NCBI GenBank assembly: GCA_011033025.1
Contig: WFMF01000048.1
Location: forward strand, 310,001 to 374,000
Length of the DNA: 64,000 nucleotides
DNA from: Beroe forskalii
Lineage: Eukaryota; Ctenophora; Nuda; Beroida; Beroidae
Direction of reading: 5' to 3'
Shown: positions 24,950 through 58,189 of the stretch, piece by piece
Layout of the letters: each line of letters begins with the position of its first letter
Numbering within the stretch: position 1 is the stretch's first letter
Made by a program: the position numbers and the translations under genes
Notes under the pieces: generated by a model
Databases searched by the model: none
What the model saw: only the letters and a program-made list of their open reading frames with translations
Told to the model about the DNA's origin: nothing

Positions 24950-25110
24950 GATCAACCAGACGCGCGCGCGATCAGCTCGAGCTTCCTCGCTCTGATTGGT
25001 CGAATGAGCTGAGGATGAGCTCATTCGATCAAACGCAGCTGAGCTTTCAACTCGCGCTCTGATTGGTCGAACCCGGACCAATCAGCGACTCCCGACCTGT
25101 GGGTAAGCTA
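24950..25110. promoter_or_regulatory. Cluster of CCAAT-type motifs in a CG-rich patch
   Basis: CTCTGATTGGTCGAA occurs near 24991 and again near 25059, and GGACCAATCAGCG follows near 25075 in the opposite sense. ATTGG/CCAAT is the core bound by NF-Y in animals. A (CG)n run lies at 24960-24974. No gene start could be tied to it, so promoter function is a guess. Confidence 0.3.
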
Positions 25111-25299
25111 ATACGCCGTCGATAATAGTGATAATATCCATTCTCGTACCACCAACAATGACATGTGGCTAAAAGGAATTGGTTAAACTTAAAACAATTA
25201 ATCAGTGTACACTGTACAATTCATAATATCGTGAATAGCTTTAATATAAATAAAATCGAAAGTTTTGCGTGCATAGGTACAATACAAGCAGAGGAACAC

Positions 25300-25570
25300 A
25301 TCAAAGGTAGCCCAAAAACTCCCATTAACCCTTGGTGGGGGTTTGTTTTGGTAATTCCTTTTAGCCCCACAGGCTTTTGTGGGGTGACCCCTAATAGGCC
25401 CCCACTTCTTCCACCCGTGTGGGGGCTAATTAAATTATAAAATTAGCCCCCCCGCAGCTGTGACTAACAGCTCCCATTTCCCCGTATGCCTGGATTAATT
25501 TTGAAATTTAGCGGGCCCCTCCCCCTGGTTGCTATAGTGGGGGCTAGTGGGGGCAATTTCATTTTAAATT
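25300..25570. repeat. G/C-run repeat, probably a decayed foldback element
   Basis: Words GTGGGGGCTAATTAAATTAT and AATTAGCCCCCCCGC lie in opposite sense about 20 bp apart, with further GGGGGCTAGTGGGGGCAATT to the right. The vocabulary resembles the G-run elements at 31403-32693. Ends and target duplication were not found. Confidence 0.4.
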
Positions 25571-25801
25571 TTTTTGAATTTTTTGGGTATATGGGAAACT
25601 AGGTACCAAAAAAGGAGACGAAAAGTAAAATGAATTCAACATGGGGGCGAATATTCCGAAAAAAGATAGGTTAAATTTTCCAGCCATAAACAAAATCATC
25701 AATTCATTCAGGGAAAAAATTCCTTAATTTTTGTTGTTTTTTTTAAAACAAACAAGACCCTTTCCAAATTGAATTTTGCCAAATCCCCCATTCATTTTTG
25801 A

Positions 25802-26210
25802 GATGTCATGACTGATGATGCAGCACAGTTCAGTTTCACAGGCATTCAATGTTTTCAGGCTGGTTTCTAAGCTTGTGGTTGGATCTCGTAGGTGGAAGTG
25901 TGGAAGTGTTCCATGAGTCGCCATGGTCTATGAGGGCAGGTCCAGTCGTAAGTCTTGGCTGTTATTCTGCAAACCAATGGCAAACTACATCATCCCTTTC
26001 ATTAATATAACTAGATTTTTAAAATTTTAGTCATTATCAGTAAGAGACTATCAAGAACATTTAAACGTGGATCAAAATTTATTGAAATTAGTCACAAACG
26101 CTCCCGGCATGACCTTTCACAGCTCCCAATGCTTCTCAGCACCCCTCCTTCAGCGCCCAAAGGCCTGACCCCTGCCTTAGCTCCCACCTCCCGCATTTCC
26201 CCAAAGCGAA
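25802..26210. repeat. Duplicated left flank of the 27-bp satellite (copy 2, with the empty MITE site)
   Basis: It matches 19745-19949 joined to 20879-21074. It passes through the join at 26006-26007 (single TA) without the 929-bp element, then continues into the satellite. Confidence 0.8.
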
Positions 26211-28690
26211 GCCCTCTCCTCAGCTCCTAAGGCTTGACTCCTCCTCAGCTCCCAAGCTTGACTCACTCCTCAGCTCCCAAGGCTTGACCCCTCCCTCCTC
26301 CAGCTTGAAAGGCTCCCTCCCTCAGTTCCCAAGGCTTGACTCCTCCCTCAGCTCCCAAACTTGACTCCTCCCTCAGCTCCCAAGGCTTGACTCCTCCCGC
26401 AGTTCCCAGGCTTGACTCCCTCCCTCAGCTCCCAAGGCTTGACTCACTCTCAGCTCCCAGGTTTGACTCCTCCCTCAGCTCCCAAGGCTTGACTCTCCCT
26501 CAGCTCCCAAGTCTTGACTCCTCCCTCAACTCCCAAGTCTTGACTCCCTCCTCAGCTCCCAAACTTGACTCACTCCTCAGCTCCCAAGACTTAACTCCTT
26601 CCTCTTCTCCCAAAGCTTGAATCCCTCCATCAGCTCCCCAAGGCTTGCTCCCTCCCTCTCCCAAGGCTTGACTCACTCTCTCAGCTCCCAAGGCTTGCTC
26701 CTCCCTCAGCTCCCAAGGCTTGACCTCTCTCTCAGCTCCCAGGCTTGACTCCCTCCCTCAGCTCCCAGGTTTGACTCCTCTCTCAAGCTCCCAGGCTTAA
26801 ACCCTCCTCAGCTCATAGGCTTTCCTCCTCAGCTCCCAAGGCTTGGTTCCTCCTCAGCTCCCAAGGCAGCTCCTCCCTCAGCTCCCAAGGCTTGACTCCC
26901 TCCCTCAACTCCCAAGTCTTGACTCCCTCCCTCAGCTCCCAAGGCTTGACTCACTCCCTCAGCTCCCAAGACTTAACTCCCTTCCTCTTCTCCCAAGGCT
27001 TGAATCCCTCCCTCAGCTCCCAAGGCTTGACTCCCTCCCTCAGCTCCCAAGGCTTGGTTCCCTCCCTCAGCTCCCAAGGCTTGACTCCCTCCCTCAGCTC
27101 CCAAGGCTTGACTCACTCTCTCAGCTCCCAAGGTTTGACTCCCTCCCTCAGCTCCCAAGGCTTGACTCCCTCCCTCAACTCCCAAGTCTTGACTCCCTCC
27201 CTCAGCCGGGGGGGGCCGAGAGCTAATTGGTAGGACCACATGCCAGTTAAGGGGTGGGTGACCCAGCGGGCTCGACCAGTTAGGGTCTGGACCCTAACTG
27301 GTAAAATTTTCTGCCAAAAGGGTCCACCCAACCATCTGACCAGTTAGATTTTGTTACCTAAGTGGCTATTTTCAGACCTAATTATTGTGGAAATTACCAT
27401 TTAAATCGAAATTGAAACCAAAGAGATTCATTCTACCAGAAAACGCATGATACAAGAAAGTGAGTTATGCTTTACCAATTTTGTGTTTATTTTTCATCGT
27501 GTATTCTATGTATACTGTATTATGTACATATCTATCACTCACACATAACTCAATAATCAACATCATGAGACCTTATCAATCTCGAACTATATACCTGTCG
27601 TCTAACCATAACGTTGATGGATCTTATGACATAGGCGCTCGAAATGATAGTGAAATAGATTAATAGGTACCGTTCATTCTTAATAATGATTCTGTGTTAT
27701 TTTCGTTGTACTGCAATATCGATAGGATAGAGTGTTGGTTGTGATGAACTATATAGTTATATTTAACAGAAAGTTGTTTGGTTTGGAGCTTTAAAATGTG
27801 ATGTGTAAGTGATAATTATGAGATTGGAGAATTACTTATTTTGCACTTATTTTGCCATACGAAATTAAGTCTCGATAATTTATGCGATTTAATTGAGATA
27901 TTAACATTATGAAATCAACATTAATTGGGTGGGTGGTTGTCGTCGATTTTGACCAACCACTTAGGGTAAGAACCTAACTGGTGGGTGGGTGGGTCAAAAT
28001 TTTGGCTTACCAGTTAGGTACCAAAATAGGCATGTGGTCCAGCCATTTAGCTCCCGGCCCTCCCCCGCCTCAGCTCCCAAGGCTTGACTCCCTCCCTCAG
28101 CTCCCAAGACTTAACTCCCTCCCTCAGCTCCCAAGGCTTGGTTCCCTCCCTCAGCTCCCAAGGCTTGACTCCCTCCCTCAGCTCCCAAGGCTTGACTCAC
28201 TCTCTCAGCTCCCAAGGCTTGACCCCCTCCCTCAGCTCCCAAGGCTTGACTCCCTCCCTCAGTTCCCAAGGCTTGACTCCCTCCCTCAGCTCCCAAGGCT
28301 TGACTCCCTCCCTCAGCTCCCAAGGCTTGACTCCCTCCCGCAGTTCCCAAGGCTTGACTCCCTCCCTCAGCTCCCAAGGCTTGACTCACTCTCTCAGCTC
28401 CCAAGGTTTGACTCCCTCCCTCAGCTCCCAAGGCTTGACTCTCTCCCTCAGCTCCCAAGGCTTGACTCCCTCCCTCAGCTCCCAAGGCTTGACTCCCTCC
28501 CTCAGCTCCCAAGGCTTGACTCACTCCCTCAGCTCCCAAGACTTAACTCCCTTCCTCTTCTCCCAAGGCTTGAATCCCTCCATCAGCTCCCAAGGCTTGA
28601 CTCACTCTCTCAGCTCCCAAGGCTTGACTCCCTCCTTCAGTTCCCAAGGTTTGACTCCCTCCCTCAGCTCCCAAGGCTTAAACCCCTTAT
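26211..28690. repeat. 27-bp satellite arrays B and C, one array split by an inserted element
   Basis: Units of the same 27-bp satellite occupy 26211-27206 and 28068-28690. Units in 26211-26880 are eroded by 1-3 base deletions (CTCCTCAGCTCCC). Those in 26880-27206 and 28068-28690 are nearly perfect. The gap is exactly the 861-bp element at 27207-28067, whose flanking duplication CCTCAGC is part of the unit. Confidence 0.85.
27207..28067. mobile_element. 861-bp TIR element with G-run ends and 7-bp target duplication, inside the satellite
   Basis: The left end CGGGGGGGGCCGAGAGCTAA and the right end, read in reverse complement CGGGGGAGGGCCGGGAGCTAA minus one base, align for about 39 bp through GGACCACATGCC. 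Identical CCTCAGC flanks both ends (27200-27206 and 28068-28074). Subterminal words ACCAGTTAGG / CCTAACTGGT recur on both sides. The centre is AT-rich, with short frames only. It shares G-run ends and a 7-bp duplication starting with C with the elements at 31403 and 51535. Confidence 0.75.
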
Positions 28691-31402: not shown

Positions 31403-32693
31403 GGGGGGGGGGCCAACCCCCATAAACCCCCATAAACCCCCAAAAATTTAACCCCCATTTGCCTTTTTCGATATCCACTTGGGGGTTTATGGGGGTTTAA
31501 TTTTCCAGGTACCATTTCCAAAATGATCAAAATTTCAGACAAAAATGGCTCAATTGTGGTGAAAATGTGGCCCCCTTGTGATCCTAACAATTTTAAAGGC
31601 GTATTTAAACTAAGAAGCGAAGAAAGGAAGGAAAGTTAAACCAAAAAATCTCTAAAAAATTTAAATTCTAGAAAAAGGTCGAAAATCATCAACAAAAAAT
31701 GGTACCATTTCAGAAAAGGGCCAAAAAACAGTACCATTTCAGAAAAGGTTCGCAAATCGTCAACAGAAAATGGTACCATTTCAGAAAAGTGCCAAAATCT
31801 TCAACAGAAAATGGTACCATTTCAGAAAAGGGTTGATATTTGTCAACAAAAAGTGGTACCATTTCAGAAAAGGGTCAAAAACCATCAATCGAAAATGGTA
31901 CCATTTCAAAGAAGGGCCAAAAATCGTCAACAAAAAATGGTACCAATTTATAAAAGGGCGAAAAATCTCCAACAAAAAATGGTACCATTTCAGAAAAGGG
32001 TCGAAAATCATCAACGAAAAATGGTACCATTTCAGAAAAGGGCCAAAAATAGTACCATTTCAGAAAAGGTTCGAAAATCATCAACGAAAAATGGTACCAT
32101 TTCAAAGAAGGGCCGAAAATCGTCAACAAAAAATGGTACCATTTCAAAGAAGGGCCAAAAATCTTCAACAAAAAATGGTACCAATTTAGAAAAGGGCGAA
32201 AAATCTCCAACAAAAAATGGTACCATTTCAGAAAAAGTTATCGAAAATCATCAACGAAAATGGTACCATTTCAGAAAAGGGCCAAAAATAGTACCATTTC
32301 AGAAAAGGTTCGAAAATCATCAACGAAAAATGGTACCATTTCAAAGAAGGGCCGAAAATCGTCAACAAAAAATGGTACCATTTCAGAAAGGGGTCGAAAA
32401 TCATCAACGAAAAATGGTACCATTTTGAAAGAGGGCCAAAAATGGTACCATTTCAGGAAAGGGTTAAAAATCGCCAACAAAAAATGGTACCATTTCAGAA
32501 AAGGGTCGAAAATCCTCAACAAAAATGGTACCATTCCGTTAAAAAAGCCAAAAATCGTGCAAAAATTAATCATAAAACAGCCAAATTTAACTAAATTAAG
32601 CCCCCATAAACCCCCATAAACCCCCAAAAATTAAACCCCCATTTGCCATTTTTCGATATCCACCGGGGGTTTATGGGGGTTGGCCCCCCCCCC
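31403..32693 (+). mobile_element. 1291-bp foldback element with G10/C10 ends, 7-bp target duplication and a GGTACC array
   Basis: Ten G at the left and ten C at the right are followed inward by CCAACCCCCATAAACCCCC and its exact reverse complement. CATAACA flanks both ends (31396-31402 and 32694-32700). Inside each end is a module of about 75 bp with CCCATTTGCC and TTTTTCGATATCCAC, and the two modules are in direct, not inverted, orientation. The centre (about 31695-32535) is about twenty units of ~40 bp with the core AAAATGGTACCATTTCAGAA and variable tails (GGTCGAAAATCATCAAC). There is no transposase; long frames here are repeat artefacts. Confidence 0.85.
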
Positions 32694-33122: not shown

Positions 33123-36089
33123 CTAACTGAGTTCAAATCCTGCCCCTGACTCAATAACATACAGCAATCGTTTCTCTAACGTATCCCTGTCACTAAATTC
33201 AGGTAATTTCAACAAGTTCGTGCACGTGCTCGCAGTGGGGAGTCTATCTTCCACCCCTGCACTGTGAATAGCAAAGAGGGGAGTTAACGCCCCGAACCCG
33301 AGCAGAGGAGTTCGGTCGTTGCTCGTCACGAAGGCCAGGAGTTTACGGTGTTGTTCAGGTGTCATGCTCTCCACCACATTCCAGAACATATTGATAGTGG
33401 GGTGCTGGTCGTTGTACACTCCGTGATACACCGTGTGTTTCTTCAAATCACCTATATCAACGTCTGCTGTGCTGCCGGATATCAGGCTCTGGAACTCCGA
33501 ACAACTGAACATCTTTAACCATTCTGGTGAGACAACGCTGTAAAAGCCCTCCGCAAAGTTACGGAAATGAACGCGAATCTGCCGGTTTAGCCGGTAGTCT
33601 GCCATCAAGTGAATGTATTCAATGAGGTTGCTTTTAGTGACTTGAATGGCTGCTCCGTTAGGTTTCAGTTCGATTGTCCTAGTCTCACCCAGTATGTTAT
33701 CTGATACGATAAAGTAGAGACACAGGTCTGCTATTGTGTCCTCCGAGTACCCCCTAAGAGACAGGATATTACGGTACATGTCAGGATCCAGAGACCTGAG
33801 GTGGTTAACATCTGCATCACCTCCAAGCAACTTCTCAAGGAAGTAGGAAGCCAGTGGTAGGTCGACAAGCAACTTCTCATACACTGCCTTACCGAGGAGT
33901 CTACCAATGAAGTAGTAGTGTTTTGTGAAGTCAGGGTAGAGACACTGAGCAGCAGGGTTAGGATGCAGCAACCCATCGGTTTCTATGAAGAATCCCCGGT
34001 TAGGGTTGAAAGCTTCCATGAGGAAGGAGGAAAGGAATTCCTGAAACAGCCCTCCCCCATCCACCCCTGCCTCATCTAAACCAGTATAGTTGATCAGCTG
34101 GATCAGTATCCTGTTCTTCAGGTTAGGGGCTACAGATTCTGTGAGCTGAGCAAACGCATCCTCGTATATGTAGTCCCTCCTGATAGATGCCTTGATAAAC
34201 CCGGAGTGGGGGTGCCCAGTGGGCCCCATCCCCGGGGGAGGCCCCCCTTGCTGAGACATGTCCTCGTTTAGAATGTGGTGAAATATCTCCACCCTCTCAC
34301 TAAAGGGAACTGTGAAAGGAACCCCGTGAAGGAGATACAGCTCCTTGATCGTGTTGAGACTCAGGTTAGGCACTGATAGAGGGTCAATGAACACACCCAC
34401 ATTGTCCTTGGTTATGTTCTGTATCCTGCTTTTGGATAACCACTCGGCCTTGTCCTCAATGAAGTCTAATCGGGAATCCATCTTATGAAGTTCACCAGTG
34501 AGTTTGATAAGAGAGGTCCAGTACGCCACCCAGTCCCTGACACCTAGCACAATCTTAGAGGTGCTCTCAGTCACACTGCCTGGAATGGCTATGTGTCTGT
34601 GTGCAGTAAAGGCTGATCTGAAGTTAAGGGTCTTGTGAGGCTGCACAGCTACCAGGTCCAAGTTAGTCATGTGGACAGAGAGGTCCCGGCAATACACACT
34701 GATACCCCTCAGTTGAGACAGGGAGAACAGAGCACTGCTGCCCTCCAATATGTCAGCATCGTGAGAAGCTCGGAGGTACTCGTAGAACAGGGCAGAGAAG
34801 ACGGTGAGGGGCGGTATGATGTCCTGGTACTCGGAGTTAGACAGGGACTTGTTGTCAGCCATCTTACTCAGACACAGTGTGGTGCCGGAGGAGAAGACAC
34901 CGGACACTTCCTTCCTCGACACTTCATCCCACAGACACCTCAGAAAGTCAGCCCGGAGACACAGCCACCGAATAGGCGAGGTTTGGATGACAGACATGCT
35001 GAATTTAGTGATCAGTAGGTAGGCTACTCGGGAAATGTGGCTGTAGCAGGAGCTGCCATATTCGCTGGACTGTACAAAGAGACGCTCCAAGCAGTCGAAG
35101 TTAAAGATAATTCTGTGGGGTTTATCAACCTCCATCTCGTCTTCTGATGAGTCTGAAGAGTCGCTGTCGGGAGAGGAATGAACGGCTTCTGCTGGGATCT
35201 CATACTCATTTAGCAACTTGAACAGCACATCCAACGCACTCTTACATGATACACTGTCCGATATGAGTTTCAGTAAGAAATAAACTATTTTATTCAAATA
35301 AATGTTCACATTTACATTCAGTTTATGAACCATTAGCTTCATGTCGATGGCACAGAGGAATGCTTTACTTTGATCAACTGGAAGTGAAGCAGGAAAGAGC
35401 AAATCAGCTGTTTCCGTGAAGTTTCTGACATGTTCATTGACAACGAAATGTTTGAGAATTAGGCCATGGTACTTGGTGTTCAGCACCTGTATGAGTCGCA
35501 CCAAAGACATATGAGAGCCCCCCAAGACATCCGCCAATAAAACCAACTTCCAGTACGTTTTCACGATTTTATCTGTGGTACACTGATTCAAGAAATCGTT
35601 GGCAGTGAATGAGGTGTCTGACACAATCCTATCAATGTAAGCGAGTGATTGGCCCTGCTGAGAAAGAACACTCAACTGATGATGTGCATCTTCAACACAC
35701 TTCAAGAGCAACATAGTGCGAGGGTAGAGGAAGGAAGGTGCCGTATACTGACCCCACAACCGCTCCACCAGCCCCCACAACCTCACTAACTTATCATGAT
35801 CACACCTCGCATCGTAGAAGTTACAGAGCAGCCGAGTGGTGACGGTCAGGTTTCCCTCCCTGAGGGAGTTCTCGAACCTGCCCCTGCTCTCCCGCCTGAC
35901 TTCTCTCCGGGTGAGAATACCCCGGATTATGCGCTGTACGGTCAGAGCAGCATCCTCCTCAGCTCGTTGAGCTTTGCGAGTCTCCCTTCCCTTGCGGTTC
36001 TGAGCGATCACGTGATCGGCGGGTACTCCGGCGTGGGAGGAGCCACAGAGGGCAACAACCGGCTTAGACTTGAACTGACCATCGAACAT
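33123..36089 (-). CDS. UBE3C: HECT-type E3 ubiquitin ligase, UBE3C family, complete single coding exon
   Basis: UBE3C extends ubiquitin chains on proteasome-bound substrates by forming a thioester on a HECT cysteine. The 988-residue frame starts MFDGQFKSKP, the typical UBE3C opening (human MFSFEGDFKTRP). An IQ-like helix lies near residues 49-62 (ALTVQRIIRGIL), and an acidic Ser/Asp/Glu patch near 306-323. The HECT domain runs from about residue 595 to the C-terminus. Visible landmarks are RRDYIYEDAF, the GLDEAGVDGGGLFQEF core, HYYFIGRLLGKAVYE, ADYRLNRQIR, and the catalytic PTASTCTNLLKLPEF (Cys about 956), ending AGFELS. Length is near the family norm (human 1083). No intron interrupts the coding region, unusual for an animal UBE3C. 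The start is supported by a pyrimidine-rich acceptor just upstream. The gene appears intact and functional. Confidence 0.96.
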   Translation of the reverse strand: MFDGQFKSKPVVALCGSSHAGVPADHVIAQNRKGRETRKAQRAEEDAALTVQRIIRGILTRREVRRESRGRFENSLREGNLTVTTRLLCNFYDARCDHDKLVRLWGLVERLWGQYTAPSFLYPRTMLLLKCVEDAHHQLSVLSQQGQSLAYIDRIVSDTSFTANDFLNQCTTDKIVKTYWKLVLLADVLGGSHMSLVRLIQVLNTKYHGLILKHFVVNEHVRNFTETADLLFPASLPVDQSKAFLCAIDMKLMVHKLNVNVNIYLNKIVYFLLKLISDSVSCKSALDVLFKLLNEYEIPAEAVHSSPDSDSSDSSEDEMEVDKPHRIIFNFDCLERLFVQSSEYGSSCYSHISRVAYLLITKFSMSVIQTSPIRWLCLRADFLRCLWDEVSRKEVSGVFSSGTTLCLSKMADNKSLSNSEYQDIIPPLTVFSALFYEYLRASHDADILEGSSALFSLSQLRGISVYCRDLSVHMTNLDLVAVQPHKTLNFRSAFTAHRHIAIPGSVTESTSKIVLGVRDWVAYWTSLIKLTGELHKMDSRLDFIEDKAEWLSKSRIQNITKDNVGVFIDPLSVPNLSLNTIKELYLLHGVPFTVPFSERVEIFHHILNEDMSQQGGPPPGMGPTGHPHSGFIKASIRRDYIYEDAFAQLTESVAPNLKNRILIQLINYTGLDEAGVDGGGLFQEFLSSFLMEAFNPNRGFFIETDGLLHPNPAAQCLYPDFTKHYYFIGRLLGKAVYEKLLVDLPLASYFLEKLLGGDADVNHLRSLDPDMYRNILSLRGYSEDTIADLCLYFIVSDNILGETRTIELKPNGAAIQVTKSNLIEYIHLMADYRLNRQIRVHFRNFAEGFYSVVSPEWLKMFSCSEFQSLISGSTADVDIGDLKKHTVYHGVYNDQHPTINMFWNVVESMTPEQHRKLLAFVTSNDRTPLLGFGALTPLFAIHSAGVEDRLPTASTCTNLLKLPEFSDRDTLEKRLLYVIESGAGFELS

Positions 36090-36090
36090 A

Positions 36091-36125
36091 GCTGTCAGGG
36101 GAAGGGTTAGAGGGTGGCTGGCCGA
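36091..36125 (-). promoter_or_regulatory. 3' splice acceptor 2 nt before the UBE3C ATG
   Basis: On the minus strand the sequence reads TCTAACCCTTCCCCTGACAG, then CT, then the ATG. It has a branch-like CTAAC, a pyrimidine tract and a terminal CAG. The first coding exon therefore probably starts here, joined either to a 5' UTR exon or to a trans-spliced leader. Confidence 0.55.
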
Positions 36126-36149
36126 GGTGATATCGTAATGGGTTACCGG

Positions 36150-39751: not shown

Positions 39752-42230
39752 TTGTCTAAACGTTCGGTAACCCCGGACCTATATGGCGAGTTCCTCGATA
39801 TGCAAAAAAAAAAAAAAAAGAACTTTCTTGAAACTCCAAAAAAGAGATTATTGGACGAAAACATGCATAATATATTAATTCAAAATTGTAGTTACAATGT
39901 AATATGGCAAGTTACTGAAATTTGTAGGTTGTTGAAGAGACCTCCACGGTCGCTGAGAATGAAATGCAATAGATTGTATATGTCGAACAAGTCTTCAAAC
40001 TACGCCACTGTTTGTTCTAATGCAGAAACTACTTTACTCAATAAAGAGATTATAGACAAAACAAAGGAAGTTAAAGATCTTATAAAGCTTATTAAATCTT
40101 CTGATCAGTCTCTCCTGCTCCCAAGAGATTATGAAAAAATCAATGCATGTAAATCTCATTTAGAAAAGAAATTTAATGGCCTCAAATTGGAATCTGAAAA
40201 TAAATGGTCATCTTGGCCTGAGAAAAAGAAACTTTCTGGGACTAATGTAACATCAGAACCTAGTGCAATTCATTTATCAAATAAGAGGATTAGAAACAAG
40301 AAGAAGAGATGTCGAAAAGCTCAGAAACAATTTCAACTCATAGTAGACACAGCTAAGCAGAATGGTACCATCATAAATCTTTCAGATCATGACATACCTG
40401 ATGAGACTTTTGCTGCTCTGAGTAGAAGGAAAGGCTTTGTTGTTGTACCCAGATATGATGCTGCTAATTGTCGTAAAGATACAGTTGATGCAATGGGAAA
40501 ATTAGCTGCCATGACATCAAAACGTATGAAAGAGTTACAAGTCAATCAGAACTCTAATGAGGATGATTTTGTTGAAGAGCCTATTGATTCTTCTCGCCTT
40601 CAACCAAAATCTGACTTCCCTAAAGACCTTAGAAGAAAATTTGTTGGGGAACCGGAAACGACAGGTGATAAGGTGGTTGATCAACTGATTCCAGAAATCA
40701 GAACAGAGCTTGATAAACTGCAACCCCCTAAGACTTTCAGCAATCTGTCCAGGAAAGAATTAAATGGTATTGTTTGGCTAACTCAACAAATAGATAAGGG
40801 TAATCTGGTGCTAGTTGAAGCAGATAAAGGTGGTGCTCTTATCATAGCTTCAAAAGACTATGTCAAGAAATTAACAGAAAAGAAATTACATAGTTCATTT
40901 TATGAAAACATTGGAACTCAAGATCCCTATACCCCGGTTTTCAAATCTATGTTGGAAATTTGGAAGAAAGGTGAAAAAGAAGGTTTGGTTGATAGAGACA
41001 CAGTTAAAACGGTAGTTGGTATCACAGACAAGGGAAATCAGAGTACACTTCCTATATAATACAAGTATGGTGAACCATATTTTTATGCTCTTTTGAAAAT
41101 TCACAAGCTCAGTACAGATCAAATCAAGGTTGGAGCAGATATTCCTGTCCGACTAGTTGCCAATTTGAGTAATGCTGCAACAACACGATCTGATAAGTTC
41201 ATCAACTGGCGGTACCTAAAGCCCCTACAAGACAAATTTTGTTCCAATTTAGTTCAAGACAGTACAGAATGGCTAATTTGGTTAGAACAAATAGCAGAAG
41301 AAGTCAAGTTAAAAGGCCACAAAAGTATAAATGGTTTCAGTTGGGATTTTGTTAGTCTTTATGATAACCTTGACCCAAATTTAGTTGTTGAAGCTCTTAA
41401 ATATGCCATAGAAGTTTGTGAATGTAATTGGACTGAAAATGAAGTTGAATGGCTCCTAGACTTGGTTAAAATTAGCATAAAGAATGGTTTTGGCAGGTAT
41501 GGACAAAATCGGTTCAAAATTGTCAAAGGAATCCCAACAGGTGGAAGCATATCAGTTTGTCTTGCTAATATTACAGTGGCATATTGTCTTATTAAAATGG
41601 TAATTAGTCAACTGGGGGGATTACCTCCTGAAATGATGGGGTTCTGTTCTTTTGTTGATGATATTGGGGGATGCTGGCAAGGGGATCAGGATAAATTTAA
41701 ACAGTTCTCAGAAGATGTCAATTCTGTCTTGTTTGATCGTTTTGGCCTCTCAATCCAAGATGGGGATTGGCAGATAAATGATGGAAATAGTTTTAGTGTT
41801 TTTCTTGATGTGCAATTCAGATTTTGTGATTCAGAAGGTTTGATCACTGATGTCAATATCAAAAAAACAGATGCTCGAGCATACTTGCATTTTGATAGCT
41901 ACCATCCAGCACATACATTCCCATCAATTGTATATATTCACAAATGCTTCGATATCAAAGAATCATAAATTCTACCACATTATTGGATTGTAGGTTAAAG
42001 GAACTCTCAAATTATTTCATTGCATCAGGCTACCCCAAGACAATGATCAATAAGATAAGGGAGGATGTCATGAAGAGAAAACGTATCCTTAGATACAAAG
42101 AAAAAGAAAACAAAGCACCTTTCAATGTGACATGGGTAACAACATACACTCCTGCTACAAACCTAATCCAGGAGACTATAGACAAAGCAAACAATGCTCT
42201 TAAATTATCAGACACTTGGAAAGAAATTGA
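39752..42230 (+). pseudogene. Penelope-like RT polyprotein, N-terminal and RT part (copy 1), with a stop and a frameshift
   Basis: Residues 1-245 form a Lys-rich leader beginning MSKRSVTPDL; an A15 run lies near codon 20. RT landmarks follow. NLVLVEADKGGALIIASKDY is the typical Penelope N-terminal motif. Motif A is WDFVSLYDNL, motif B is GIPTGGSISVCLANI, and the catalytic motif C is FVDDI. Then come FLDVQFRFCD and SYHPAHTFPS. An in-frame TAA at 41057-41059 arises from three bases absent from copy 2. An extra TA near 41934 shifts the frame after PSIVY. Both lesions are tiny and lie in repetitive sequence. The frame is then cut at 42230 by the foldback element. RT of this group uses a GIY-YIG nick for target-primed reverse transcription. 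Confidence 0.85.
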
Positions 42231-44273
42231 GGCAAAATGGTACCACAGGAACACGACAAAAATTAGCCTCCATTAGCCTCCATTAGCCTCCATGGAGGCT
42301 GAGTGGAGGCTGAGTGGAGGCTGAGTGGAGGCTAAGTGGAGGCTAATTTCAAAATTAGCCTCCACGGAGGCTAGTGGAGGCATGAGGCTAATTTTCGAAA
42401 ATAGCCTCCACTATGGAGGCTATATTAACCTCCACTAGCCTCCACTAGGCTCACTAGGCTCCACTCAGCCTCCACTCAGCCTCCACTCAGCCTCCATGGA
42501 GGCTAAATTTTTGTTTAGCCTCCACTAGCCTCCACTCAAGATTTAGCCTCCATTAGCCTCCACGGAAATTTAAAAAGTCATTTTTGTATTCTATGGAAGC
42601 TATTTTGACAGTGCTAGTGGAGGCTATAGCCTCCAAATGGAGGCTAAAATCATGAAAAAACACAGATAATATGCTAGCCTCCACAAAATTAAATTTATGT
42701 CATGTTTTTACAAAAGAGTACATTTTGGCAACATAGACCAAAGTCTAGTATTAGGCACCACTAGGCCTCCACTAGAATCCACTCAGCCTCCACTAGGCTC
42801 CACTAGGCTTCACTCAGCTCACTAGGCTCCACTCAGCCTTCCACTAGGCTCCACTCAGCCTCACTAGGCTCCATTCAGCCTCCACTAGCCTCCATGCAGC
42901 TTCACTCAGCCTCATTAAGCCTCCACTCAGCCTCCACTAGGCTCCACTCAGCCTCCACTAGGCTCCACTAGCCTCCAATAGGCCCACCAGCCTCCACTAG
43001 GCTAGTTGAGCTAAGTGGAGCCTAGTGGAGGCTGAGTGGAGCCTAGTGGAGGCTGAGTGAGCCTAGTGGAGGCTGATTGAGCCTAGTGGAGGCTGAGTGG
43101 AGCCTAGTGGAGGCTAGTGGAGGCTGAGTGGAGCCTAGTGGAGGCTAAGTGGAGCCTAGTGGAGGCTGAGTGGAGCCTAGTGGAGGCTATTGGAGCCTAT
43201 TGGATCCTAGTGGAGGCTAGTGAGCCCTGGTGGTGGCCAGTGGAGGCTGAGTGGAGCCTAGTGGAGGCTAGTGGGGCCTGAGTGGAGCTTAGTGGAGGCT
43301 GAGTGGAGCCTAGTGGAGGCTAAGTGGAGGCTAGTGGAGGCTGAGTGGAGCCTAGTGGAGGCTGAGTGGAGCCTAGTGGAGGCTGAATGGATCCTAGTGG
43401 AGGCTAGTGGAGCCTATTGGATCCTAGTGGAGGCTAGTGGAGCCTAGTGGAGCCTAGTGGTGGCCAGTGGAGCCTAGTGGAGGCTGAGTGGAGCCTAGTG
43501 GAGGCTAGTGGGGTCTGAGTGGAGCCTAGTGGAGGCTGAGTGGAGCCTAGTGGAGGCTAAGTGGAGGCTGAGTGGAGCCTAGTGGAGGCTGAGTGGAGCC
43601 TAGTGGAGGCTGAGTGGAGCCTAGTGGAGGCTGAGTGGAGCCTAGTGGAGGCTGAGTGGAGCCTAGTGGAGGCTGAGTGGAGGCTGAGTGGAGCCTAGTG
43701 GAGGCTGAGTGTAGGACAGTTGGAGCTGTCTGAAAGTTTGAAGCTATATATTGTTTTTCACATTAGTACACATAAATCACCATTTTCAGCAAGAAATTTG
43801 TGTTTTGTAGGCTTATTGATTTAGGCTCCACTCAGCCTCCACTTAGCCTCCACTCAGCCTCCATTAGCCTCCATTAGCCTCCATATGGAGGCTTTAGCCT
43901 CCACAAAAATGACTTTTTAAATTTCTGTGGAGGCTAATGGAGGCTAATTCTTGAGTAGAGGCTAGTGGAGCCTAGTGGAGGCTAAACCAAAAATTTAGCC
44001 TCCATGGAGGCTGAGTGGAGGCTGAGTGGAGGCTGAGTAGAGGCTAGTGGAGGCTAATGGAGGCTAGTGGAGGCTAATATAGCCTCCATAGTGGAGGCTA
44101 TTTTTCAAAAATTAGCCTCATGCCTCCACTAGCCTCCGTGGAGGCTAATTTTTGAAATTAGCCTCCACTTAGGCTCCACTCAGCCTCCACTCAGCCTCCA
44201 CTCAGCCTCCATGGAGGCTAATGGAGGCTAATGGAGGCTAATTTTTGTCGTGTTCCTGTGGTACCATTTTGCC
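42231..44273. mobile_element. 2043-bp foldback element of AGCCTCCA words with an exact 8-bp target duplication
   Basis: The ends GGCAAAATGGTACCACAGGA and its exact reverse complement open arms of about 350 bp that pair almost perfectly. The arms are made of AGCCTCCACT/AGTGGAGGCT words in alternating sense. The centre (about 43010-43720) is a one-directional array of a 21-bp unit, GGAGCCTAGTGGAGGCTGAG plus T. The host duplication GAAATTGA lies at 42223-42230 and 44274-44281. Copy 2 of the retroelement has a single GAAATTGA (as TCAATTTC, 56095-56102), so it shows the empty site. No transposase is present. Arms made of short tandem words with an 8-bp duplication recall the sea-urchin TU and Drosophila FB foldback classes. 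Confidence 0.92.
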
Positions 44274-44281
44274 GAAATTGA

Positions 44282-44902
44282 TAGACCTATTGGATTAGTT
44301 CACAAACGTGCTCCTAATTTAGGTAATAAACTTTTCAAGAGAAGAAAGCTAGCTTTATCTGCCCACAACTCAGTACATCAAGAAAGGGGTCAGGGAACTG
44401 TAAGTTGTACTAATGCTGAAAATAAAAAGCGGGGTCGTCGGTGTAAAGGTTGTGCTATGATGTCTGGTAAATCAGTTGTAAAGTCAAGCTCAAATGGGCG
44501 GCAGATCAACACACCATTTGCAACATGTCAGACAAAATGGTAATCTATCTAGCTGAATGCCGTAAATGTGACAAACAATATATCGGTCGTACAGTTCAGA
44601 TGCTCAGAAACAGAATCAGTGGTCATAGGGGTTGGATAAACAAACCCAAAGTAAAGGAAAAAACAGAAAATTTGAATCATGAAGAGGAAGATGAGGCAGC
44701 ACTGGCTGATCATTTACAGACTGTCCACAATTTGTCATCAGCAAATGATTTTGATTCTAACTACATGTTTACAATCATTCAAATTTGTGAACCATCATCA
44801 ATTGTCAATTCAGAATACAAATGGATTTCAAATTTGAAAACTCTAACACCTTTTGGACTCAATATTCAGAAACCTTTTGGGATTGGTGAGAGGCTGATCT
44901 GA
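44282..44902 (+). pseudogene. Penelope-like polyprotein, C-terminal GIY-YIG part (copy 1)
   Basis: The frame resumes DRPIGLVHKRAPN after the foldback element. A Cys cluster (CTNAENKKRGRRCKGC) and the GIY-YIG nuclease follow: MVIYLAECRKCDKQYIGRTV, then LRNRISGHRG. The C-terminal part includes EEDEAALADHL and the WISNLKTLTPFGLNIQ tail. The stop is at 44902. A one-base change of frame occurs near 44524-44540 (QTKW then stop, versus QTKMVIYL in copy 2). The domain makes the DNA nick that primes reverse transcription in EN+ Penelope-like elements. Confidence 0.85.
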
Positions 44903-45420
44903 GAATTTTTTCTAATGCCAGGTTTTAATTTATTAATTTATTAATGATTTTCATGTGAGGGAATTTATTTAATATCTTTGAATTTAAATATAATATCTTT
45001 AATTTCGATTTTTAATTTTCTAAACTTTTTAATAAATTATTTTCTTCTTCTTCTTTTTAATTTAATCTGTTGGCTACATCCACACTAGTTTCAATAATTC
45101 ATCTTTGTAGTTTGTAAAACGATTTTCTTCATCGTTTTAAAGTTTTTAGGCCTATCTCTATTTTCTAGGAAAATTTGTTATCAATTTTGTTATTTTTATA
45201 TGTTGTTGTTTGTATATTTGGACGGCTATTGAGTTAATTGCATTTGATTTTCGGCGCCCGTTAGGTTTTTTTAATAGCTTGCAAAATTTAATAATAGGAA
45301 TCTTGGTTTGAATTGACTTCATGTTTTAAGGTTTTTATCTTATAAACTTGGATAGATATTTTAACCTTTCTTTTATTATAGGTAGGAAGCCAGAAGGCTT
45401 ATTAATGATATATGAGATGT

Positions 45421-45468
45421 TAATTGTCCTGAAGACGGAGATGGACCGAAACATGTAGACAAATTAAT
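45421..45468 (+). ncRNA. Hammerhead-ribozyme-like motif in the 3' region of Penelope-like copy 1
   Basis: The core CTGAAGA (45429-45435) and GAA (45448-45450) are in hammerhead order. Helix I is TAATTGTC (45421-45428) against GACAAATTA (45458-45466), with one bulged A. Helix III is the very short ACATGT, and the predicted cleavage follows A45457 (GTA). Penelope-like elements are known to carry minimal type I hammerheads with such short helix III. Helix II is weak here: only GG/CC pair around AGATGGA, with an extra C at its base, so activity is uncertain. The same sequence is kept in copy 2. Confidence 0.55.
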
Positions 45469-45729
45469 ATCATTGCTGTGTTTCTTGGTTTATAAAAGAG
45501 CATCAATTGTTTTATTGTTTTATTGATCAGTCATTACTGAAATTTAAACATGAATTTGACTTAAATATACACAATTAATAGAACGTCTCATAAACCAGCC
45601 AATAATGTCCGACAGTAAGTGTATATTTTTCTTCTCATAATTACATTTCCATCCAAATGGAATTTACTTATCAACGGCGTAAAGAAAAGGTAGAAAACCA
45701 TGCCAAACTCGCACCTTCACCTGACTAAT

Positions 45730-47470: not shown

Positions 47471-47489
47471 AAAAAAATACAGCCCTAAT

Positions 47490-47955
47490 GGCGGAGTCCA
47501 CTGGCAGAGTCCACTGGCAGATTCCACCAGTGGAGTTTACTGGTGGACTCCACCGGCATTCACGGAGTCGAGTCCACTGCGGGAGTTGAGTCACTGGCGG
47601 AGTCGAGTCCACCAGTGGACTCCACACTGGTGGAGTCCGCCAGTGGACCTGACTCGCCAGTGGACTCCGCCGGTGGAGTCCACTGACTCCGCCAGCGGAC
47701 TTACCTCCACAATTATTTTAGTCCACGGTGACTCTTTTGGTGGACTTTTCGGTGGACTGTCCACCAGTGCGCCGGGCGGAGTCAGGACCAAGCAGCGGAC
47801 CCACCCACCGCGGGCGGAGTTTCGAAAAGTCCGCTGCAGGTCCACCAAAGTCCACCAAAAAATTTTATGGTGGACTTTAGTGGAGTCCGCGGCGGACCTG
47901 CAGCGGGTCCACCGGGTCCGCAGCGGGTCCGCGGCGGAGTTAAGTCCACCCATTT
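47490..47955. repeat. Inverted/tandem array of GGAGTCCACTGGC words
   Basis: GGAGTCCACTGGCAGAGTCC and its opposite GGTGGACTCCACCGGC alternate, with a GC-rich right part (GCAGCGGGTCCGCGGCGGAG). The vocabulary TGGACTCC/GGAGTCCA makes it self-complementary over most of its length. It looks like a foldback element, but I could not define ends or a target duplication. Confidence 0.6.
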
Positions 47956-50756: not shown

Positions 50757-53316
50757 ATGCAGAGTGAGTGGAGTCACATTGATGAATTAGATGATGTTAT
50801 TTCTGATACTAAATTGAGGATAGCAGAATATAAGGAAGAAATCATAAAGCTTGAATCACATTTATCATGGCTTTATGATGAACGTGAAAGTTTTCTTGAG
50901 AACCTTTCAACAAAGAAAAAAGAGAATGTTTCAATTACCTCTAAACCACATTCCTTCAATTTGCAACGTTCAAGAAACCTTCCAATTGCACCAGTAAGAC
51001 AACTTTCTGAAACTGGAGGGAAGCTCACTGAATCACCTTTAGATTCTTTTGTCAGCAAATCATCAGGAAATTCATTTGGATCAGCTACAAGTTTAATTAG
51101 CAGGAACTGCATATCTTGTTCTGTTGAGGATGTATCATTAAGTGAATCAAATAGCCCTTCTCGAACATCATCAAAGAAAGGACAGAAATTTTCCACCCAT
51201 GATTTAAAGTTCCTTAAGAAACTTACTAATTACGCCAAATCTCCATCAAAATGGAATGGTTCTAACCCAAAGCTTTCAATATCTTCTATGGATGAAATTC
51301 TGTCAGAATCTTGTAATAGCATTGGAAGTATTACAACATCAACTGATGATTTGGATGCTGACAAATCACTTAAACATCAATATGTGAGTTAATTGATCCT
51401 TACAACACATTAGGTATTCTTTGATAAAATATAATTGATGATATCTATAATCAAAAATATTGCATAGGTATTTTTTGCACACAAATTTGAAAATGATTCA
51501 TTGACATCGTGTGGTATACTGGTATAACTACATAGGGGGGGGGGGGGCAACCTCGAAAAACCCCGGGTGGATACAAAAATTGCCAAATGGGGGTTTAATT
51601 TTTCGGGGTTTATGAGAGTTTAAGGAGGCTAAACTGATGAAAATAGCCGTTTTTCGGTCGGAAAATTCAATTTTTTCTCAAAATGGTACTACTTTAGTTG
51701 TGGATTTTCGGCTCTTCTCTCGAATGGTACCATATTTGTTGAGGATTTTTGGCACTTTTCTGAAATGGTACCATTTTTGTTGAGGATATTCGACCCTCTT
51801 CTGAAATGGTACCATTTTTATTGAGGAATTTTGGCCCTTTTCTGAAATGGTACCATTTTTGTTGACGATTTTCGACCCCTATCTGAAATGGTACCATTTT
51901 TGTTTAGGATTTTCAACCCTTTTCTGAAATGGTACCATTTTTGCTGGAAATTTTTCTTCGCACTTTTCTGAAATGGTACCATTTTTGTTGAGGATTTTCG
52001 ACCCTTTTCTTAAATGGTACCATTTTTGCTGAAGATTTTTGGCACTTCTCGGAAATGGTACCATTTTTGTTGACGATTTTCGACCCTTTTCTGAAATGGT
52101 ACCATTTTTGTTGACGATTTTCGACCCTAATCTGAAATGGTACCATTTTTGTTGAGGATTTTCAACCCTTTTCTGAAATGGTGCCATTTTTGCTGAAGAT
52201 TTTTGGCACTTCTCGGAAATGGTACCATTTTTTGTTGACGATTTTCGACCCTTCTCTGAAATGGTACCATTTTTGTTGACGATTTTCGACCCTAATCTGA
52301 AATGGTACCATTTTTGTTGTGGATTTTCAACCTTTTTCTGAAATGGTACCATTTTTGCTGGAGATTTTTGGCACTTTTCGGAAATGGTACCATAATTTTT
52401 GTTGAGGAATTTTGGCTCTTTTCTGAAATGGTACCATTTTTGTTGAGTATTTTCGACCTTAATCTGAAATGGTACCATTTTTGATGATGATTTTCTGAAA
52501 TGGTACCATTTTAGTTGTAGATTTTTAGCCCTATTTTGAAATGGTACCCATTTATACCCCCAAAAACCTAAAAGTGGATATAAAAAAAGCCAAATAGGGG
52601 TTTAATTTTTCGGGGTTTATGGGTTTTTTTCGAGGTTGCCCCCCCCCCCTACATAACTACTGAATAGTGAATAAATTTTGTTAATGCTAGCTTTGATTCA
52701 TTTAATGAAGTTGTGAGCAAAACATGGCTTTTTAGCTTCAAGCATCAGAATCTGATCTGACAATTTTCAGTTCAAGATAAGTGATAATGATGCTGGTTCC
52801 AGTAGCAACAACAATACCAATAAAAGTAGTCTGAGAAGAAACAGAGTGTTCTATTCTAAGAAGGTAGGTAAAAATGCCCAGAAGTAAATGCAGAATTTAC
52901 AAAAATTATGATAATCACTTCAAAGATCCTTATTTAAATCTTTGTTGAGTTCAAAACAAATTCTCCGCCCATTCCAACCAATTTCCTATCACCCTGCAAA
53001 AATCCCTGAGTTTTGACTTTTTAACTTATGCACATATCACAAAGCTACCACTTTGTTTTATTATAACAATACACTTGATGGGTTGATATTTGCCAAACTG
53101 CTGCAAAGACCACCAACAACTTATAACTCATCTAACTATCATCCAGAAAAAGCACTATCTGATGGAAACGATGTCACATCATGGCACTTGCAGTCCAAGT
53201 GACCACTCAGGAGCCAGCGACGACATATCACTCGATAACATCTCCAACTCTGACTCCAGTGGGTGTCTAGGGAACCCTGTCTCTGACGAGAATGTTCAGC
53301 AGTCTAACAGTGGAAC
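50757..53316 (+). CDS. Coiled-coil/Ser-rich protein, at least three exons (50757-51383, 52771-52863, 53147-53316)
   Basis: I do not recognise the protein. Exon 1 (209 codons) starts MQSEWSHIDELDDVISDTKL and has a predicted coiled coil at about residues 5-55. A Ser/Thr-rich stretch follows. It ends CAATAT then GTGAGT. Exon 2 (31 codons, phase 0) lies between TTTTCAG and GTAGGT and reads FKISDNDAGSS to NRVFYSKK. Exon 3 (phase 0 start after ATCATCCAG) reads KKHYLMETMSHHGTCSPSDH and then a Ser/Asp-rich run, ending GGAAC then GTGAGT (phase 2). All joins keep the frame open, which strongly supports a real gene. A stop lies two codons before the ATG, though TTATGCAG there could itself be an acceptor. 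Exons beyond 53316 were not found. Intron 1 contains the foldback element at 51535-52648. A cytoskeletal or signalling scaffold is a guess. Confidence 0.7.
51535..52648 (-). mobile_element. 1114-bp foldback element of the GGTACC family, inside intron 1, opposite orientation to 31403-32693
   Basis: Left G13 and right C10 runs are followed inward by CAACCTCGAAAAA and its reverse complement. CTACATA flanks both ends (51528-51534 and 52649-52655). Module words GTGGATACAAAAATTGCCAA and GGGGTTTAATTTTTCGGGGT occur at both ends in direct orientation, as in the 31403 element but reversed. The centre is about twenty units of ~40 bp, ACGATTTTCGACCCTTTTCT then GAAATGGTACCATTTTTGTT. The element makes up most of the 1387-bp intron. 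Confidence 0.85.
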
Positions 53317-54840: not shown

Positions 54841-54912
54841 CATTAATTAAATTAATGACTGATCAATAAAACAATTGATGCTCTTTTATAAACCAAGAAA
54901 CACAGCAATGAT

Positions 54913-54961
54913 ATTAATTTGTCTACATGTTTCGGTCCATCTCCGTCTTCAGGACAATTAA
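54913..54961 (-). ncRNA. Hammerhead-ribozyme-like motif in copy 2
   Basis: The minus strand carries the same TAATTGTC, CTGAAGA, GAA, ACATGT, A, GACAAATTAAT series as 45421-45468, with the same weak helix II. Preservation in both copies shows that it was part of the source element. Confidence 0.55.
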
Positions 54962-55472
54962 CATCTCATATATCATTAATAAGCCTTCTGGCTTCCTACC
55001 TATAATAAAAGAAAGGTTAAAATATCTATCCAAGTTTATAAGATAAAAACCTTACAACATGAAGTCAATTCAAACCAAGATTCCTATTATTAAATTTTGC
55101 AAGCTATTAAAAAAACCTAACGGTCGCCGAAAATCAAATGCAATTAACTCAATAGTCGTCCAAATATACAAACAACAACATATAAAAATAACAAAATTGA
55201 TAACAAATTTTCCTAGAAAATAGAGATAGGCCTAAAAACTTTAAAACGATGAAGAAAATCGTTTTACAAAGATGAATTATTGAAACTAGTGTGGATGTAG
55301 CCAACAGATTAAATTAAAAAGAAGAAGAAGAAAATAATTTATTAAAAAGTTTAGAAAATTAAAAATCGAAATTAAAGATATTATATTTAAATTCAAAGAT
55401 ATTAAATAAATTCCCTCACATGAAAATCATTAATAAATTAATAAATTAAAACCTGGCATTAGAAAAAAATTC

Positions 55473-57832
55473 TCAGATCAGCCTTTCACCAATCCCAAAA
55501 GGTTTCTGAATATTGAGTCCAAAAGGTGTTAGAGTTTTCAAATCTGAAATCCATTTGTATTCTGAATTGACAATTGATGATGGTTCACAAATTTGAATGA
55601 TTGTAAACATGTAGTTAGAATCAAAATCATTTGCTGATGACAAATTGTGGACAGTCTGTAAATGATCAGCCAGTGCTGCCTCATCTTCCTCTTCATGATT
55701 CATATTTTCTGTTTTTCCTTTACTTTGGGTTTGTTTATCCAACCCCTATGACCACTGATTCTGTTTCTGAGCATCTGAACTGTACGACCGATATATTGTT
55801 TGTCACATTTACGGCATTCAGCTAGATAGATTACCATTTTTGTCTGACATGTTGCAAATGGTGTGTTGATCTGCCGCCCATTTGAGCTTGACTTTACAAC
55901 TGATTTACCAGACATCATAGCACAACCTTTACACCGACGACCCCGCTTTTTATTTTCAGCATTAGTACAACTTACAGTTCCCTGACCCCTTTCTTGATGT
56001 ACTGAGTTGTGGGCAGATAAAGCTAGCTTTCTTCTCTTGAAAAGTTTATTACCTAAATTAGGAGCACGTTTGTGAACTAATCCAATAGGTCTATCAATTT
56101 CTTTCCAAGTGTCTGATAATTTAAGAGCATTGTTTGCTTTGTCTATAGTCTCCTGGATTAGGTTTGTAGCAGGAGTGTATGTTGTTACCCATGTCACATT
56201 GAAAGGTGCTTTGTTTTCTTTTTCTTTGTATCTAAGGATACGTTTTCTCTTCATGACATCCTCCCTTATCTTATTGATCATTGTCTTGGGGTAGCCTGAT
56301 GCAATGAAATAATTTGAGAGTTCCTTTAACCTACAATCCAATAATGTGGTAGAATTTATGATTCTTTGATATCGAAGCATTTGTGAATATACAATTGATG
56401 GGAATGTATGTGCTGGATGGTAGCTATCAAAATGCAAGTATGCCCGAGCATCTGTTTTTTTGATATTGACATCAGTGATCAGACCTTCTGAATCACAAAA
56501 TCTGAATTGCACATCAAGAAAAACACTAAAACTATTTCCATCATTTATCTGCCAATCCCCATCTTTGATTGAGAGGCCAAAACGATCAAACAAGACAGAA
56601 TTGACATCTTCTGAGAACTGTTTAAATTTATCCTGATCCCCTTGCCAGCATCCCCCAATATCATCAACAAAAGAACAGAACCCCATCATTTCAGGAGGTA
56701 ATCCCCCCAGTTGACTAATTACCATTTTAAGACAATATGCCACTGTAATATTAGCAAGACAAACTGATATGCTTCCACCTGTTGGGATTCCTTTGACAAT
56801 TTTGAACCAATTTTGTCCATACCTGCCAAAACCATTCTTTATGCTAATTCTAACCAAGTCTAGGAGCCATTCAACTTCATTTTCAGTCCAATTACATTCA
56901 CAAACTTCTATGGCATATTTAAGAGCTTCAACAACTAAATTTGGGTCAAGGTTATCATAAAGACTAACAAAATCCCAACTGAAACCATTTATACTTTTGT
57001 GGCCTTTTAACTTGACTTCTTCTGCTATTTGTTCTAACCAAATTAGCCATTCTGTACTGTCTTGAACTAAATTGGAACAAAAATTTGTCTTGTAGGGGGC
57101 TTTTAGGTACCGCCAGTTGATGAACTTATCAGATCGTGTTGTTGCAGCATTACTCAAATTGGCAACTAGTCGGACAGAATATCTGCTCCAACCTTGATTT
57201 GATCTGTACTGAGCTTGTGAATTTTCAAAAGAGCATAAAAATATGGTTCACCATACTTGTATATAGGAAGTGTACTCTGATTTCCCTTGTCTGTGATACC
57301 AACTACCGTTTTAACTGTGTCTCTATCAACCAAACCTTCTTTTTCACCTTTCTTCCAAATTTCCAACATAGATTTGAAAACCGGGGTATAGGGATCTTGA
57401 GTTCCAATGTTTTCATAAAATGAACTATGTAATTTCTTTTCTGTTAATTTCTTGACATAGTCTTTTGAAGCTATGATAAGAGCACCACCTTTATCTGCTT
57501 CAACTAGCACCAGATTACCCTTATCTATTTGTTTAGTTAGCCAAACAATACCATTTAATTCTTTTCCTGGACAGATTGCTGAAAGTCTTAGGGGGTTGCA
57601 GTTTATCAAGCTCTGTTCTGATTTCTGGAATCAGTTGATCAACCACCTTATCACCTGTCGTTTCTGGTTCCCCAACAAATTTTCTTCTAAGGTCTTTAGG
57701 GAAGTCAGATTTTGGTTGAAGGCGAGAAGAATCAATAGGCTCTTCAACAAAATCATCCTCATTAGAGTCCTGATTGACTTGTAACTCTTTCATACGTTTT
57801 GATGTCATGGCAGCTAATTTTCCCATTGCATC
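55473..57832 (-). pseudogene. Penelope-like RT/GIY-YIG polyprotein, copy 2, with small frameshifts
   Basis: The RT core is open from 57157 to 55700, with DFVSLYDNL, GIPTGGSISVCLANI and FVDDI intact. It joins seamlessly through KEIDRPIGLVHKRAPN to the Cys cluster and the GIY-YIG segment (IYLAECRKCDKQYIGRT). Lesions relative to copy 1 are single-base changes in runs. One C is missing in GATATTCTGTCC near 57178. One A is added near 57567 in CAGGAAAAGAATTAA. One A is lost near 55707. A local double shift changes KPLQDKFC to KAPYKTNFC near 57090. Without these it would be a single continuous frame from the truncation point. Such run-length lesions could be assembly errors. Confidence 0.85.
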
Positions 57833-58189
57833 AATTAAATTAATCATTAATTAGAATATATTAACTATTAACTATTCATATAGTTGTAAAATGTTACCAT
57901 CTGTTGGTAAAAGTGGCAATCTTCTCACTTTCTCAGAGGGCTTCAATTAATCATAACATTACCCTACTCACTAGCTCACTATAAAACCACGCAAAGAACT
58001 CACATTATAGCTCTAAATTGACAAAATTATAAATAATAATTGCTTGTACAGCAGCTCACAGCATAACTGTATAACGATACAGCATAACAATTATACTGCT
58101 TTGACAGATAATGTCGAACTTTTTAACAAGTTATCTATTTTATTTAGAATTCTGCTATTGATTTATCTGTTGTGGATCGTCAAGCTAAG

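Follow-up and report, generated by a model that had tools for sequence, protein, structure and literature searches.

The element and its insertion site

The stretch of DNA analysed here (termed the window) comprises 64,000 nucleotides from the ctenophore Beroe forskalii, and harbors, within one of two inverted copies of a retroelement, an intervening sequence of 2043 bp that extends across positions 42231-44273. That sequence is bounded by inverted tips reading GGCAAAATGGTACCACAGGAACACGAC (also written GGCAAAATGGTACCACAGGAACACGACAAAAAT), which can be read directly in the window, and is flanked on either side by an 8-bp direct repeat, GAAATTGA, at positions 42223-42230 and 44274-44281. The ends lie where an earlier reading, made from the sequence alone, had placed them, and the 8-bp duplication that it reported is present. 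The features of the locus, with their strands, are as follows.

40485-45517 (+): interrupted host retroelement, its extent being that of the inverted repeat
42223-42230 (+): left target-site duplication, GAAATTGA
42231-42263 (+): left tip, 33 bp, holding the 8-bp palindrome TGGTACCA
42264-42730 (+): left arm, in which the words AGCCTCCA and TGGAGGCT alternate; haplotype L, inner part poorer in words
42731-42759 (+): conserved non-word segment X, marker ACATAGACCAAAG...
42760-43002 (-): central satellite in the AGCCTCCACT orientation
43002-43715 (+): central 21-bp satellite in the opposite orientation, 34.5 units
43759-43811 (+): conserved non-word segment Y, marker CACATTAGTACACATAAATC...
43812-44240 (-): right arm made of words; haplotype R
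44241-44273 (-): right tip, the left tip inverted
44274-44281 (+): right target-site duplication, GAAATTGA
54864-57834 (-): second copy of the host retroelement, inverted and without the element
56094-56101 (-): empty target site, reading TCAATTTC on the + strand

The uninserted form of the target is preserved in the second retroelement copy: when the element and one duplication are deleted, the resulting flanks correspond to that copy at 554 of 554 bases, with no mismatches. The empty site announced by the sequence-only reading thus exists, although the coordinates then given for it (56095-56102) were one base off its actual position. Across the two copies of the host retroelement, matching pieces are 96-100% complementary. 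By eye, this retroelement was judged to be Penelope-like, with an end that we take to be GIY-YIG-like; comparison of three of its frames with Pfam returned, in one of them, a weak match to RVT_1 that fell below the cut-off (E 6.6e-4).

Architecture of the element

Four words (AGCCTCCA, TGGAGGCT, AGGCTCCA and TGGAGCCT) account for 49% of the element as exact matches and for 56% when a single mismatch is permitted, as compared with a mean of 1.1% and a maximum of 2.9% in 50 mononucleotide shuffles, and with 0.9% in the rest of the window. The words follow one another at a spacing of 10 or 11 bp (approximately one helical turn) in 66% of 3806 gaps, and change strand near position 43002. The 21-bp satellite that had been noted in the centre is real, with 87% matches across its units. 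The accompanying description of the element as made only of short words was too strong, because the non-word segments X and Y are present and recur in other copies.

The inverted arms are likewise real, but their length, originally put at 350 bp, was understated: the outer arms (42225-42354 and 44150-44279) are 98% complementary without gaps, and a gapped alignment of the two halves of the element extends over 966 columns at 78%. Two of the properties by which a foldback is recognised are accordingly present, namely inverted arms composed of short internal repeats and the ability of a single strand to form a hairpin, the latter found for the first 100 nucleotides of the element (z -4.65) and for a 321-bp copy, L065 (z -30.8). 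As had been proposed, the element lacks coding capacity; its longest ATG reading frame in the window spans 42 amino acids, and no such frame exceeding 100 amino acids was found among the 38 genomic copies, described below, that retain two tips.

Several further repetitive structures occupy the same window. Two inverted-repeat elements, at 31403-32693 and at approximately 51534-52673, carry tips with runs of 10-13 G/C and contain a 41/42-bp satellite (AAAATGGTACCATTTC...); outside them lie the 7-bp direct repeats CATAACA and CTACATA, the leading C of which may belong to the tip. At the start of the window (1-2160), and cut by it, is an inverted structure composed of other words (GGGCTCCCC and GGGGAGCCC), whose arms (1-107 and 1877-1983) are 91% complementary; it is possibly a second word-built unit resembling a foldback. 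Positions 47488-47955 are dense in GGAGTCCAC and GTGGACTCC words and in short inverted repeats, and a 27-bp satellite, CCCAAGGCTTGACTCCCTCCCTCAGCT, is distributed in three blocks across 21080-28679. A HECT-domain protein of 1008 amino acids (E 2e-93) is encoded by a single open frame on the - strand at 33123-36149.

Copies in the genome

A genome search with the terminal sequence, as the sequence-only reading had advised, was conducted against the host assembly (216 Mb in 1134 contigs) and revealed many copies. The 33-bp tip was found, at up to three mismatches, at 326 sites (153 forward and 173 reverse), while a reversed control returned none in either orientation. Exact 26-bp tips number 204 (32 + 62 + 110), and the exact 25-bp tip was absent from viral_contigs. 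Among the 194 exact tips that were listed, 134 make up 67 neighbouring pairs in inverted orientation less than 8 kb apart (280-6180 bp, with a median of 1965), the two longest of which (5.9 and 6.2 kb) lie at C369:205638-211492 and C1067:14643-20822; the other 60 lack an exact partner at that distance.

In all, 41 regions were read, consisting of the window and 40 regions fetched by an exact tip (35 pairs and 5 single tips). Two tips are present in 38 of them, including L076 and L078, in which the partner differs by one or two mismatches; the remaining three (L074, L075 and L077) have a single tip. Because these copies were selected by exact tips, the constancy of the tips is partly a matter of ascertainment. 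Long repetitive open frames near the single tips of L075 (1-4300) and L077 (4140-7890) have the appearance of further word satellites.

A shared plan of arm, X, satellite, Y and arm is displayed by 31 of the 38 two-tip copies. In those 31, the distance from tip to X (489-553 bp) and from Y to tip (427-528 bp) is in each case about 0.5 kb, and differences in length reside mostly in the central satellite, which measures 767-2599 bp in 30 of the 31 oriented copies. The other, L060, contains an insert and is the longest readable copy at 4835 bp; by eye, that insert is retrotransposon-like and holds no recognisable transposase. L050, in contrast, owes its 3595 bp to satellite expansion. Three copies without the middle (257, 280 and 321 bp) are MITE-like, and four others (L042, L043, L045 and L070) are rearranged, carry foreign DNA or have no recognisable X; the other DNA inside L043 and L045 includes no gene recognised by eye.

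An exact 8-bp duplication is present in 31 of the 38 two-tip copies and one with a single mismatch in three more; an exact 9-bp repeat flanks two (L065 and L072), the 8-bp repeat of L045 is displaced by two bases, and L078 has no duplication. Duplications of 8-9 bp therefore flank 36 of 38. At up to one mismatch, shifted positions yielded only 6 such repeats in 3800 and wrong pairings none in 1406, versus 34 of 38 for the true 8-bp comparison. Next to the duplication, A (or T, on the opposite flank) stands in 36 of 68 instances (p 1.4e-4), and within the duplication the position in contact with the tip is occupied by G or C in 110 of 204 cases (p 1e-6). Among 76 flanks of 250 bp, three pairs, from two pairs of loci, share sequence. 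One copy, L050, is itself inserted into the Y segment of another copy and is flanked by the target-site duplication GTTTTTCA.

It had been stipulated that copies with varying ends, or without flanking duplications, would argue against a discrete transposing unit. What was found is the reverse, that is, duplications around nearly all copies and constant ends (the latter partly by selection), and hence the remaining property expected of a foldback, that of a discrete mobile unit. A satellite array or a segmental duplication with look-alike ends might still be contemplated, in that half of the element consists of satellite words and satellites abound in the window; that explanation is refuted by the empty site and by the duplications of the other copies, runs counter to the mostly unrelated flanks, and is extremely improbable. 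The ends are discrete, the targets are duplicated, an empty site survives, the many copies sit at mostly unrelated places, and one copy has inserted into another; all of this is demonstrated, and the element represents a non-coding foldback family that is discrete and recently mobile.

Recent movement and probable exchange between arms

The first 40 bases of the arms are conserved at 99.8-99.9% across 62 arms from 31 copies, these having been selected by exact tips, while the later full 20-bp arm blocks are conserved at 79-98% and the last, partial block at 61%. The inner segments differ by a median of 3%, and between the window copy and L062 they show no difference in any of the 364 columns compared. 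Because the inner segments of different copies are nearly identical, recent movement is demonstrated.

Five positions distinguish two arm haplotypes, GCCGT on the left and CTTCA on the right. The right type occupies both ends in 7 of 31 copies (four perfectly, and three, L044, L061 and L078, with gaps or one mismatch), and the left type occupies both ends in none of the 31; mixed arms also occur in a few cases, among them the right arms of L046 and L057. A tree built from the inner segments, which has no well-supported branch, requires five changes for the seven right/right copies. Conversion from arm to arm is likely.

Relationship to known foldbacks

Foldbacks have long been known, and the present family is a new one of that known type, distinguished by an unusual word architecture; its structural type is that of FB, TU, Tetris, Galileo and Tm1. 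In FB and TU the long inverted arms consist of short words in tandem, the short forms are non-coding, and the target is duplicated, over 9 bp in FB and 8 bp in TU; FB has, in addition, a NOF/MULE partner with shared ends. The family resembles both in its arms, its duplications and its lack of coding capacity, and appears to differ from both in its words and tips. Its initial assignment to the TU/FB type was thus correct as to structure, while membership in either the Drosophila FB or the sea urchin TU family is not supported. The family is not FB, because the length of its duplications differs (8 bp in 34 of 38 copies, and 9 bp in only two); that length does agree with TU. A NOF-like partner of the kind found with FB was not encountered, none of the 46 MULE matches in the genome having a listed exact tip closer than 10 kb (194 of 204 located). 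A literature search on foldbacks in combination with sponge, sea urchin, Merlin and target duplications produced no matching family among the titles listed, subscription journals and Repbase being outside its scope.

The hosts of foldbacks include Drosophila and sea urchin (PMC4079207). Tetris and DAIBAM, from the Drosophila virilis group, are described as including a non-autonomous foldback with tandem-repeat arms, 8-10-bp duplications and a short relative that shares its ends, a combination that is also seen here (PMC4079207). The arm repeats of Tetris, however, are about 220 bp long rather than 8-bp words at a spacing of 10/11 bp, and three structurally complete copies were reported, as compared with the 38 two-tip copies read in this study (PMC4079207). 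Galileo, of the P superfamily, similarly displays foldback-like arms with tandem repeats, and includes chimeric copies without matching duplications (PMC3573991, PMC3688188); the absence of a duplication at L078 is reminiscent of those recombinants (PMC3573991). Unlike the present family, Galileo has duplications that are mostly 7 bp with a consensus (PMC4168063). Its transposase is known. Finally, repeats within inverted ends and many non-autonomous forms are also features of Muta1, a MULE from Aedes, and of Tm1, a Mutator/foldback element from Meloidogyne with 9-bp duplications (PMC5225508, PMC3169594). Both differ in having a transposase-bearing member, none having been found here.

Search for a larger relative

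The larger relative with a transposase for which the sequence-only reading had hoped was not found among the non-canonical GGCAAAATGGTACCA sites that were read, these having the look of satellite units, unrelated sequence or a giant palindrome. At up to one mismatch, and with different next bases, GGCAAAATGGTACCA occurs at 84 sites (12 for the reversed control). Those read comprise a stretch of 9.2 kb, L079, together with 20 shorter stretches, L080-L099, a number of which carry one mismatch. Eight ends of the form ..CAGGG, CAGGA or CAAGG (L080-L087) lead, by eye, into a satellite whose units resemble GGTGTCAGGGTAAAGT; six of the eight are preceded by that satellite's GTGTC(A/G)G. In a ..CATTA group of six exact sites, the same ACGTGTCTTG precedes all five ends read, again by eye. 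Given that satellite and that shared upstream sequence, neither the CAGGG-type ends nor the CATTA group were read as ends of elements. L079 (C802:263400-272630) was likewise rejected, its palindrome running past its GGCAAAATGG sites, with arms of about 2.9 kb that are 98-99% complementary in six pieces. This palindrome is built of the same words as the element, and surrounds exons that are presumably NUP107-like.

Candidate transposases and a possible mechanism

The family is, in all probability, a non-autonomous foldback DNA transposon that is moved in trans by a cut-and-paste (DDE-type) transposase. The genome contains 23 hAT-dimer, 46 MULE and 35 Merlin-type (DDE_Tnp_IS1595) domain matches. 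Of the exact tips, 194 of 204 were located and listed, as were two inexact tips in the fetched regions. No domain match lies inside a pair of these 194 exact tips, and no MULE or Merlin match has one of them closer than 10 kb; of the 23 hAT matches a single one does, at 3.6 kb from a pair and outside it.

A Merlin (IS1595-like) transposase is one tentative candidate for the mobilising enzyme, several of its matches in the genome being in open frames near 300 amino acids. The distance of all of them from the listed tips counts against it, as does the fact that no foldback family is known to us whose source is Merlin, nor, to our knowledge, has a word-built Merlin been described. In its favour, Merlin tips begin 5'-GG and its duplications are 8 or 9 bp, both of which are found in this family (PMC8101967); Merlin inverted repeats are there given as 24-462 bp (PMC8101967).

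A Mutator-like (MULE) enzyme is also possible, while falling short of probable. Such an enzyme would be in keeping with most foldbacks, which seem to be Mutator (PMC4079207), and with Muta1, in which 8- or 9-bp duplications accompany a tip that is short and imperfectly palindromic, with tandem repeats behind it in subterminal position (PMC5225508). The tip palindrome TGGTACCA, the subterminal repeats and the 8/9-bp duplications of the present family fit that pattern, and MULE matches do exist in the genome; the same remoteness from listed tips weighs against this candidate, as does the predominance of 8-bp over 9-bp duplications noted above.

It is rather unlikely that the mover belongs to another class with duplications of about 8 bp, such as hAT, a P/Galileo-like element or a Zisupton-like KDZ element. 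Duplications of hAT and KDZ elements are about 8 bp long, and hAT-dimer matches are present in the genome. Galileo, a member of the P superfamily, is foldback-like (PMC4168063, PMC3688188), and yet its duplications in D. willistoni, described as 7, rarely 8 bp, with the consensus GTATTAC, are unlike those of this family (PMC4168063).

For a DDE-type enzyme supplied in trans, with Merlin or Mutator-like transposases as the preferred classes, the proposed course of events would be as follows. The transposase would recognise the near-invariant 33-40 bp tips, excise the element, and reintegrate it where the two strands are cut with a stagger of 8 bp (rarely 9 bp), with A[8 bp]T favoured. The words may serve as repeated binding sites for that transposase, or as spacers in helix phase, and the arms may grow, shrink and convert one another through slippage and hairpin-templated repair. 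A broader and improbable extension holds that the 8-bp words, one per helical turn (10/11 bp), might offer a transposase a series of repeated docking sites, the enzyme possibly being of the Merlin type and of a class not known to be tied to foldbacks. On that view, the unrelated word-built inverted structures of the window (1-2160, 31403-32693 and approximately 51534-52673) and the giant palindrome L079 might have arisen through a single process, acting across the genome, by which the ends of transposons are converted into mirrored satellites.

The family bears on how foldbacks move, and on why their arms consist of short repeated words. It is young, and offers dozens of close copies, clean target duplications, an empty site that matches perfectly, one insertion of a copy into another, minimal forms of 0.3 kb and two distinguishable arm haplotypes; the minimal requirements at the ends, the conversion of arms and the search for the transposase are therefore directly testable.
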